A DNA stretch of 64,000 nucleotides from Candidatus Bathyarchaeota archaeon (GTDB taxonomy: Archaea; Thermoproteota; Bathyarchaeia; Bathyarchaeales; SOJC01), in the NCBI GenBank assembly GCA_023131225.1, contig JAGLZW010000019.1:1-64000 (forward strand), read 5' to 3'. Below are positions 14,890 through 17,250 of the stretch, piece by piece (position 1 is the first letter of the stretch; every line of letters begins with the position of its first letter). Under the pieces are notes generated by a model. That model was not told where the DNA came from. It searched no databases and saw only the letters and a program-made list of their open reading frames with translations. The position numbers and the translations under genes were made by a program.

Positions 14890-15267
14890 ATGTCAGATAA
14901 AGAACAAACCGAAATCGAGGCATCTGCCGAAAAAGTGGAAAGCGAAGAGGCGACAAAGGAAAAAGAAGTTATACCCCGCAAAACACCTCGCAAAGACCAA
15001 AACACAGTCTACATTGGAAACAAACCTCCAATGAATTATGTCATGGCAGTCATCACAGCTTTCAATATGAGTGACACGGATAAAGTCGTCCTAAAAGCGC
15101 GAGGTCGCGCCATAAGCACGGCTGTTGATGTTACTGAAATCCTCCGCAACCGATTCTTCAAAGACGCCAAAGTAAACGCTATCTCCATAGGTACAGAGCA
15201 GATCACACCCAGAGAAGGCGGCAACCCAAGAAATGTCTCAACAATGGAAATTATCATTAAAAAATGA
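14890..15267 (+). CDS. alba: Alba family DNA/RNA-binding chromatin protein
   Basis: 125 aa from ATG 14890 (MSDKEQ). The first 35 or so residues are an acidic then basic, probably disordered extension. The Alba fold follows: NTVYIGNKPPMNYVMAVITAF, where the lysine after IGN aligns with the nucleic-acid-binding, acetylatable lysine of Sulfolobus Alba; then KVVLKARGRAISTAVDVTEILRNRFF; and a C-terminal RNVSTMEIIIKK strand. Alba dimers coat DNA and also bind RNA. The acidic N-terminal tail is longer than in Sulfolobus Alba (about 97 aa) and might modulate binding. A longer start at 14848 is less likely given the TATA position. Confidence 0.92.
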   Translation: MSDKEQTEIEASAEKVESEEATKEKEVIPRKTPRKDQNTVYIGNKPPMNYVMAVITAFNMSDTDKVVLKARGRAISTAVDVTEILRNRFFKDAKVNAISIGTEQITPREGGNPRNVSTMEIIIKK

Positions 15268-15559
15268 GAACCATTGGAGAAAACAGATCCGCCTATCCAC
15301 TCTATTTTTGTAGAGGTGACGGTTTCTGCGCACGCGGTGTTCTTGAATAATAAAAATGAATCCATGCACAACTGCAATGCCAATGCGTGCGCATGCACTT
15401 TTCCATGACCCACATTATTCTCTTCGCCATACGTTATAGGGGCATTGGTTCCAACAGTATCTGCTACCTTTAAACACACATCCTTTGCATTCTGATCTGC
15501 TAAAAGGCTTTTGTTTTCTCATTAACTCCCAGATAAAAACTGTCAAACTGCTTTATGAA

Positions 15560-15706
15560 TTATCCCTTTGGGCGTCCCCTAACATGCTTCTTGTAATGAA
15601 GTAGTTTTTCTCTTTCTTCTTTTGGCAGGAGAAAAGCAGGTAGCGTCTTTGTTTTCCTTGGTCGCCCCCAATTCTTCAGGGTAGTAACATTGATTTCCTC
15701 TGTCAA
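15560..15706 (-). CDS. 48-aa basic protein with two AT-hook-like motifs
   Basis: A short gene on the minus strand from a TTG at 15706, preceded by a strong ribosome-binding site (GGAGGGTGAT). The product has NWGRPRKTK near the N-terminus and HVRGRPKG at the very end. Both contain the GRP core flanked by Arg/Lys that defines AT-hooks, which insert into the minor groove of AT-rich DNA. A charged segment (PKEEREKLLHYKK) lies between them. No known family was recognised. It lies between alba and another small basic protein gene, so a DNA-binding or architectural role is a reasonable guess. The good Shine-Dalgarno site is the main reason to believe it is translated. Confidence 0.5.
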   Translation of the reverse strand: MTEEINVTTLKNWGRPRKTKTLPAFLLPKEEREKLLHYKKHVRGRPKG

Positions 15707-15816
15707 GAATCACCCTCCTATTATCACGTGGTAAAGGGAGGGTTTGATTCTTCACCTTAGACTATTTAAGTTTAGTGAACACAGTAGATAATTTGAAGCT
15801 TATTGGTGATTTGAGT

Positions 15817-15960
15817 ATGGGGAAAAAGAAGCTTTCACGTGTAAAGAGAAGGATGTTAGAAAGACAGAGAGAACCGCCTATCTATAGTTCTGAAAGTCTT
15901 CGTCAAGCATATGAACAGAAAAACAGGTGGGTAAACAAGGTTCAAAAAAGAAAAGAGTGA
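15817..15960 (+). CDS. Small basic hypothetical protein
   Basis: 47 aa from the ATG at 15817 (MGKKKLSRVKRRMLERQREP), preceded by GGTGAT. An upstream in-frame start at 15775 exists but adds a less basic leader. It is rich in Lys, Arg and Gln with no cysteine, and I recognise no family. The composition suggests nucleic-acid or ribosome association, but nothing in the sequence proves it. It stands alone between the AT-hook-like protein and TBP. Confidence 0.5.
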   Translation: MGKKKLSRVKRRMLERQREPPIYSSESLRQAYEQKNRWVNKVQKRKE

Positions 15961-16055
15961 TGGTCACACCATGGATTTCTTTAAGCCCTTCGCGTTATGG
16001 GGATATTCTTGATTATTCTGCGCGCCCATAATCCTTTGCATATTTGGCGAGTAGA

Positions 16056-16616
16056 TTATTCGTAGAATATCAGTTGCTGTTCTTCGAGCATCCTGTGAAG
16101 CTTGTGCACGGCACCATGGACGTCCTGTTCTCTTTTGCCTCCAGTGCAAACAAGGTTCCCGCTTGCGAATATCAGTATGACCACTTTAGGTTCGTCCATC
16201 CTGTAGATCAAGCCTGGAAACTGCTCTGGCTCATACATCGCTTTTCCAAGCGTGAAAACTGCCTTCTCCAAATCTATCTTTCCACCTAACCTTACAGAAG
16301 CAACGATGTTCACAACCTTAAAGTCCGGCTTGCCGATGATGATTATTCCGCCCTTTTTCAGTTCTTTAACAACTGTCATAACAGCTCTCCTGGATTCCTT
16401 CTCCGATTTTGCTCCTGTGCAAACCATTTTTCCAGTGCTAAAAATCAACGTAGCCGTCTTCGGTCTCTTAAGCCTAAACACAAGTCCAGGAAACCGTTCT
16501 GGGCGATATTCAACCCCTGGATAACCTTTCACAACCGCGTTTAAGTCAATCTTCTGGTTTAAAGCGGCAGAAGCAACAACGTTTTCAATGGTTATTTTGG
16601 CTTTAGTCTTTGGCAT
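16056..16616 (-). CDS. tbp: TATA-box-binding protein
   Basis: 186 aa with the two direct repeats of the TBP saddle. Repeat 1 is ITIENVVASAALNQKIDL through FPGLVFRLKRPKTATLIFSTGKMVCTGAKS. Repeat 2 is FKVVNIVASVRLGGKIDL through FPGLIYRMDEPKVVILIFASGNLVCTGGK. It recognises promoter TATA boxes and recruits TFB and RNA polymerase. The frame is open upstream to 16721, but the ATG at 16616 (MPKTKAK) begins right at the first repeat and lies at the right distance from a TATA-like GTTATAAAGC. Both repeats keep the phenylalanine and valine pattern that contacts DNA. It is transcribed divergently from the polymerase B remnant. Confidence 0.97.
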   Translation of the reverse strand: MPKTKAKITIENVVASAALNQKIDLNAVVKGYPGVEYRPERFPGLVFRLKRPKTATLIFSTGKMVCTGAKSEKESRRAVMTVVKELKKGGIIIIGKPDFKVVNIVASVRLGGKIDLEKAVFTLGKAMYEPEQFPGLIYRMDEPKVVILIFASGNLVCTGGKREQDVHGAVHKLHRMLEEQQLIFYE

Positions 16617-16652
16617 TAAACACAGCTCGCATAGTGAAGTGTTTAAACACCT

Positions 16653-16662
16653 GTTATAAAGC
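16653..16662 (-). promoter_or_regulatory. Putative TATA box for tbp
   Basis: GCTTTATAAC on the minus strand, about 40 bases before the tbp start. It would place initiation shortly before the ATG at 16616 and so argues against the longer open frame. Judged by eye. Confidence 0.35.
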
Positions 16663-16800
16663 CTTAGATTCAAGAGGTGGATATTTCTCTGCACAACTTT
16701 TTTGTTGCATGTATGCATCAATCCGTAATGATCAGCAAGTTCAAATTGCTGAGCAAATTCTGGAAAAAGCTAACCGATATGTCGAGAAAATCCCCGGACA

Positions 16801-17250
16801 GTGAATGCATGCACAGCAAACAACGTTAAGGAATTCTATGCGAAAATACCCGACGCCTTGAATATAGTTAGAAAATACAGAAAAAGGCTTATCGAAGGAG
16901 ACATTCCAATTTGGGACTTAATTATCACTAAGCGACTCTCCAAGTCTCTAGACAGCTACAAACAAAAAGTCAGCCAAGTCATCGCCGCTGAACAACTTCT
17001 AAAAGAGGGAGTCAAAGTACCCGCTGGAAAGAACGTTAGATTCCTTTTCACCAGTGCAGACAACAAACATTATGAACGAAGAGTTAGAGCAGAAGAACTA
17101 ATTGAAGAAAACATTTACTCTGACGTTAAAAAATATCTTTCGCTTTTGTATATAGCAGCCTCAAACTTACTAAGTCCTTTTAGCTATTCAGCAAAAGACG
17201 TCTACGACTCAGTTAGAGGCCTTCAATGCGCAAAACTCGTCCAGTTCTGA
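16801..17250 (+). pseudogene. C-terminal remnant of a family B DNA polymerase (thumb region)
   Basis: 149 codons from a GTG at 16801 resemble the end of archaeal PolB: NVKEFYAKIPDALNIVRKYR, then IWDLIITKRLSKSLDSYKQKVSQVIAAEQLLKEG, KVPAGKNVRFLF and ERRVRAEELI to a C-terminal end. In PolB this follows the palm. The catalytic palm (DTDS), exonuclease and fingers are absent, and a stop codon in this frame at 16771-16773 closes it upstream. A coding-like stretch in another frame (QVQIAEQILEKANRYVEKIPG, about 16737-16801) may be a frameshifted continuation. Methanothermobacter has a naturally split PolB, but its small part keeps the active-site aspartates, so this looks like a decayed gene. An independent thumb protein cannot be excluded. 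Confidence 0.6.

Follow-up and report, generated by a model that had tools for sequence, protein, structure and literature searches.

A 48-aa AT-hook-like frame between an archaeal chromatin gene and a tbp gene

An unexpected pair of AT-hook-like motifs in a very small reading frame, close to genes for Alba and TBP in a Bathyarchaeota genome, raises the question of what such a protein does and whether it acts on chromatin at all. The original prediction, made from the letters alone, was of a candidate small chromatin protein. We analysed the frame, here called Y, in the 64,000-nucleotide stretch of DNA in which it lies (henceforth the window), together with its neighbours and relatives. The features on which the analysis draws are these:

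15560 to 15706, minus strand: Y, a basic microprotein of 48 aa, with a TTG start at 15706 and the stop codon at 15560-15562
15415 to 15522, minus strand: Z, a 35-aa Cys4 miniprotein (C-x2-C-x7-C-x3-C) with an ATG start and GGGAG upstream, next after Y in the same direction
15817 to 15960, plus strand: X, a basic microprotein of 47 aa, divergent from Y
15707 to 15816, between the two: the intergenic region shared by X and Y, with a TATA-like CTTAAA (minus strand) at 15765-15770, 64 bases upstream of Y
15707 to 15750, minus strand: the Y leader; its 5' part and the Y ribosome-binding site could form a possible, weakly supported hairpin
15388 to 15979: the X-Y-Z cassette, shared with genome G008 (593 columns at 91.7% identity), where it has other neighbours
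14893 to 15267, plus strand: Alba (Pfam), convergent with Z and Y
16056 to 16616, minus strand: a TBP paralogue (Pfam) beside the cassette, with X between Y and TBP

The frame stands as predicted, its 15560-15706 span counting in the stop codon. The product, MTEEINVTTLKNWGRPRKTKTLPAFLLPKEEREKLLHYKKHVRGRPKG, is basic and carries GRPRK and RGRPKG, and the predicted presence of two GRP motifs holds beyond what composition would give: when its residues were shuffled 200,000 times two cores arose in a fraction of 0.000125, and Y is the sole frame with two GRPs among the 679 stop-to-stop frames of at least 40 aa in the window. A GGAGGG ribosome-binding site lies 5' of the TTG, the bases immediately before the start being GGAGGGTGATTC, and GGAGGGTGATTNTTG has a single occurrence in the window but none in 100 shuffles. 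The strong ribosome-binding site that had been claimed is therefore present next to the TTG, with the qualification that it sits within the predicted leader hairpin. The claimed proximity to alba and tbp also holds, since both flank Y, but neither shares an operon with it.

Y is a conserved gene family of one Bathyarchaeota family

Ten of 61 genomes gave a match in a protein search, eight in the GTDB family of the window and two marginally, while a class-wide search gave 9 of 256 genomes passing E 0.01, the ninth (G206) through a 15-residue stretch at E 0.0086. Our counts exclude this last match, as well as four marginal places at E 0.01 to 0.08, the first of which is the tail of a decayed copy. 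Y is a lineage-restricted family, found in one Bathyarchaeota family, where 8 of the 13 genomes carry it (5 of the 8 with at least 90% completeness and at most 5% contamination); at least two of the Bathyarchaeota genomes compared are metagenome bins. It occupies 15 places: 12 hold full-length copies, one a copy truncated where its contig ends, and two (G001 C29 and G009 C16) copies in which frame-breaking changes, judged by eye, mark decay. The genome of the window (G000), G001 and G009 have three copies each. In a tree of the 13-row family alignment three groups appear, A (6 rows, 85/84), B (3 rows, 93/93) and C/D (3 rows, 84/81), and the G006 row sits unplaced on a long branch. Y is thus a real gene family of three clades, with decayed copies.

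Pairs from different clades have a pS of 0.58-0.94 and a pN of about 0.23-0.46, with dN/dS at 0.09-0.49 where dS is finite. One-sided Fisher tests on five pairs chosen from 78, which share branches and are not independent, gave 1e-5, 2e-8, 3e-3 and 2e-3, and 0.42 for B_G000/B_G009. Near pairs within clades are often without a sign of purifying selection, their dN/dS, calculated on few changes, being 0.87 for A_G000/A_G008, 0.69-1.00 in clade B and 0.85 in clade C. Equal synonymous and nonsynonymous rates had been named beforehand as the sign of a spurious frame; Y is not refuted on this count, and the substitution pattern indicates that distant pairs are under purifying selection. With the frame and the start position kept as well, the prediction of a conserved small basic gene is upheld, and the pI lies between 9.8 and 11.6 in all 13 rows.

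The leader hairpin of the window has a predicted energy of -17.4 kcal/mol and a z of -2.1 (-2.4 in another run), with 8 of 200 shuffles equally good. Three relatives folded in the run that gave -2.1 have z values of -0.9, -0.8 and 0.1; over both runs z is -0.5 to -1.1 in four near relatives, about 0 in A_G003 and -1.6 in the decayed G001 C29 copy. We dropped the idea of a hairpin that hides the Y ribosome-binding site, given that the values in relatives are mostly near -0.5 to -1.1 or about 0. CTTAAA recurs at -62 to -71 in 7 of the 8 clade A copies, decayed ones included, as a raw count.

The conserved part of Y is its middle and not the hooks

Invariant in all 13 rows are M1 (the chosen start, TTG or ATG), K18, P23, F25, L26, L27 and P28, and I5, W13, G14 and E31 are near-invariant; the most conserved part of the protein is its middle, K18 and P-x-FLLP. 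By contrast with this core, the GRP motifs vary, two being present in four rows, one in three and none in six (one of the six is cut by a contig end). In a Pfam scan of the 13 rows AT_hook was the sole family at E up to 1, matching four rows with a best E of 0.013, and the scores of the window Y (14.6 bits) and of the A_G003 row (13.1 bits) stay below the cut-off of 17.4. Neither the distribution of the two cores nor the score of the window copy bears out an AT-hook chromatin protein or membership of the AT-hook family. Y resembles the AT-hook (PF02178) and HMGA proteins in its GRP core with basic flanks and in being small and basic, but differs from them in that sub-threshold score, in a core that is unconserved across the family and in a middle that is predicted to be structured.

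The broader reading as a small chromatin protein is not the best one either. Presence in 8 of 13 genomes of the family falls short of the near-universal presence expected of a general archaeal chromatin protein, some copies are decayed, and the genome of the window has both a histone and Alba. A role in replacing histones was considered and set aside, as histones show no clear pattern (5 of 8 genomes with Y, 4 of 5 without). Among the compared loci alba lies beside Y in only two genomes, both of the window's genus, and because it adjoins Y only within one genus it is a weak clue to Y function. Alba, histones, Cren7 and Sul7 are, like Y, small, basic and archaeal, and the Alba gene adjoins Y in the genus, but in a comparison made by Pfam scan alone none of the 13 rows matches their families at E up to 1, and Y is patchy. 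The excerpted text of PMC6936261 treats archaeal histones, Alba, Cren7, Sul7 and bacterial AT-hook-like motifs, and the excerpts of the matches listed for AT-hooks in archaea describe no archaeal AT-hook microprotein.

What fold might the conserved middle adopt? An AlphaFold2 model of Y (three sequences; mean pLDDT 71.8, pTM 0.36) places strands at 4-10 and 16-23 and a helix at 29-42. A beta-hairpin followed by a helix is the most likely arrangement on this model, which we take as a hint and not as a structure. The best match of the model in a PDB fold search had an E of 2.0, and a PDB sequence search returned one match at E 0.84, taken as chance. Nothing over cut-off that names a function was found for Y in Pfam (13 rows), NCBIfam, PHROGs, PADLOC or the PDB; NCBIfam, PHROGs and PADLOC were given three of the 13 rows each, with a D row in place of a C row for PADLOC. 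No toxin or defence family over cut-off was found for X, Y or Z in Pfam, NCBIfam, PHROGs or PADLOC, the sub-threshold PADLOC matches being at E 0.012 for X and E 0.023 for Z.

Small cassettes carrying Y appear to move between genera

The X-Y-Z cassette measures about 0.6 kb. Positions 15335-15977 are 91.2% identical in DNA to G009 C41, and positions 15330-16703, TBP included, are 88.5% identical to G009 C16. Taken one by one, Z, Y, X and the intergenic region match the three G008 and G009 copies at 87-96% identity (87-94% for the intergenic region). The gene contexts vary. In G000 and G001 the neighbours are alba and tbp; in G009 C16 the neighbour is tbp, beyond which lie a clade B copy and a cold-shock-domain gene; the G009 C41 contig has a Phage_integrase gene; and in G008 there are genes for serine hydroxymethyltransferase and for radical SAM proteins. 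Background genes are far less alike. For the M29 aminopeptidase gene adjoining tbp, identity to the window is 68% in G009, 70% in G004, G006 and G008 and 71% in G011, and other genes on the G008 cassette contig are 70% and 76% identical to G000. Since the cassette is 91-92% identical to copies in two other genera (G008, G009 C41) against 65-76% in the compared background genes, the exchanged TBP apart, and stands in differing contexts, a recent horizontal exchange between genera is strongly indicated by these identities. A check for misbinning covered the G008 contig alone, and a chimeric contig is a possible alternative. No repeats marking an insertion were seen by eye in the alignments of the cassette edges, and no element carrying the cassette was found.

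The TBP gene at 16056-16616 seems to have been exchanged between genera as well. It is 94.7% identical to a copy in G009 and 89.8% to one in G003, both of other genera. Elsewhere in the seven genomes that were searched, TBP matches lie at 65-76%, save the copy in G001, of the same genus, and one 85-base piece in G011 at 86%. The TBP set of G000 comprises three two-repeat genes, this copy among them, and one single-repeat match. Clade B shows a comparable pattern: a 484-base stretch with Y and a downstream cold-shock-domain ORF is 94% identical in G000 and G009, and Y shares 160 bases at 91% DNA identity between G011 and G009, in both cases with differing upstream contexts. The shared stretches of clade B (DNA identity 91-94%) are:

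L030, 8323 to 8806
L029, 5682 to 6163
L035, 1 to 160

Near tbp, at 16801-17250 on the plus strand of the window, there is also a C-terminal fragment of a family B DNA polymerase (Pfam E 2.4e-8). It is probably a decayed copy, and similar polymerase B pieces occur in related genomes at 70-76%.

The two partners of Y in the cassette differ in their range. Of the 256 genomes of the class, six have homologues of X, each a member of the window's family, and 55 have homologues of Z. Among 398 genomes sampled across the phylum, 23 have relatives of Z, three of these lying outside the class. Z is multicopy in some genomes, with nine matches in G018, fragments counted (Z loci L054-L083, L140-L142). Its invariant residues in 15 aligned rows are F7, C12, C15, Y22, C23, W24, C27, P28, N30 and W32. 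It matches no library family over cut-off, although 6 of the 15 rows weakly resemble the radical-SAM model TIGR04083, at a best E of 0.0031. Its structure model, with a mean pLDDT of 55, was set aside. As the excerpted literature describes them, the haloarchaeal zinc-finger micro-proteins with C(P)XCG are likewise archaeal, shorter than 70 aa and furnished with cysteine pairs; Z differs from that description in its C-x2-C-x7-C-x3-C spacing, the window copy having no C(P)XCG pair. Read by eye, a Y frame lies upstream of Z in four of 30 printed Z loci, all of clade A, and is absent from the other 26, one of which holds just 86 bases upstream; with 26 of 30 lacking it, Y and Z are not an obligate pair.

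Z was also found on three IMG/VR contigs, in one of them 1.7 kb from a terminase large subunit. In two of the three, no more than 1.2 kb separates it from the end of the contig, and for this reason it may be host flank. Y has no relative on viral contigs or in phage records, and X and TBP have none on viral contigs; a single 15-residue match to Z in phage records, at E 0.2, was dropped.

What Y may do

We tentatively favour a reading of Y as a mobile, accessory, nucleic-acid-associated basic microprotein whose conserved core serves dimerisation or docking. Y would fold as the modelled beta-hairpin and helix, with the core LPAFLLPKEEREKLL probably dimerising or docking on a partner protein. The basic turn (WGRPKK) and the basic tail may contact nucleic acid, a suggestion that comes from their charge, and in clade A these basic patches would have taken an AT-hook-like form. 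Y would travel between genera of one family in small cassettes, with X and Z or, in clade B, with the cold-shock-domain gene. Because it is carried in cassettes apparently exchanged between genera, a role in local regulation for mobile DNA, or as an accessory benefit of it, is likelier than general chromatin packing.

A related possibility, which we consider rather less probable, is that Y serves a virus or integrative element as an accessory protein, such as a small regulator, an antitoxin or a counter-defence factor, left in place or moved with X-Y-Z. The signs of recent exchange between genera, the integrase gene on the G009 C41 contig, the polymerase B fragment adjoining tbp and the Z homologues on viral contigs, one with a terminase, all fit such an origin, but neither Y nor X was found on viral contigs, nor Y in phage records, two of the three viral Z copies may be host flank, and the libraries offer no toxin or defence family over cut-off for any member of the cassette. 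An HMGA-like chromatin protein, in which the two GRP hooks bind the AT-rich minor groove and the middle is a linker, is unlikely. It would account for the paired cores with basic flanks, for the size and charge of Y, for the nearness of alba and tbp in the window's genus and for AT_hook being the only family to match any row; against it stand the six rows without a core, the sub-threshold window copy, conservation that falls on the supposed linker, the patchy and partly decayed distribution and the histones found in five of the eight Y genomes. Slightly more doubtful still is a virus-linked mobile module, X-Y-Z, that would retune basal transcription of the host, with Y linking TBP or promoter DNA to a partner and so shifting the choice of promoters in favour of mobile DNA. 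The cassette adjoins the apparently exchanged TBP paralogue, and in G009 two Y clades flank this TBP gene: to one side stands an intact clade B copy, to the other X, a clade A copy in decay, and Z.

Two further readings have little to recommend them. The predicted beta-beta-alpha order of the Y model would suit a derived swapped-hairpin DNA binder of the AbrB/MazE type (PF04014), and the PKEEREKLL stretch of Y recalls PKE-R-KL of AbrB, which we take to be a superficial likeness of motif. Such kinship is very unlikely, and we rejected it on the profile comparison: Y is without profile similarity, hhalign giving a probability of 1.8% and aligning a different stretch (eight of the nine G000 MazE/AbrB matches were used), no row matches Pfam MazE at E up to 1, and the fold search gave no PDB match better than E 2.0. 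That the frame is no protein at all, and only the by-product of a conserved DNA or RNA element, is hardly credible. Near copies do conserve the whole DNA, intergenic region included, but the clades keep the Y protein while synonymous sites approach saturation, the start position is constant whether the codon is TTG or ATG, and Rfam has no match at the Y locus.

As a mobile, accessory basic protein or otherwise, Y adds to the archaea a microprotein family that reaches three copies in a genome and bears strong marks of inter-genus exchange. Its history illustrates that AT-hook-like motifs in a single sequence need not define a family, and suggests that small accessory cassettes circulate among Bathyarchaeota along with a TBP gene and a Cys4 miniprotein that is also present on viral contigs.
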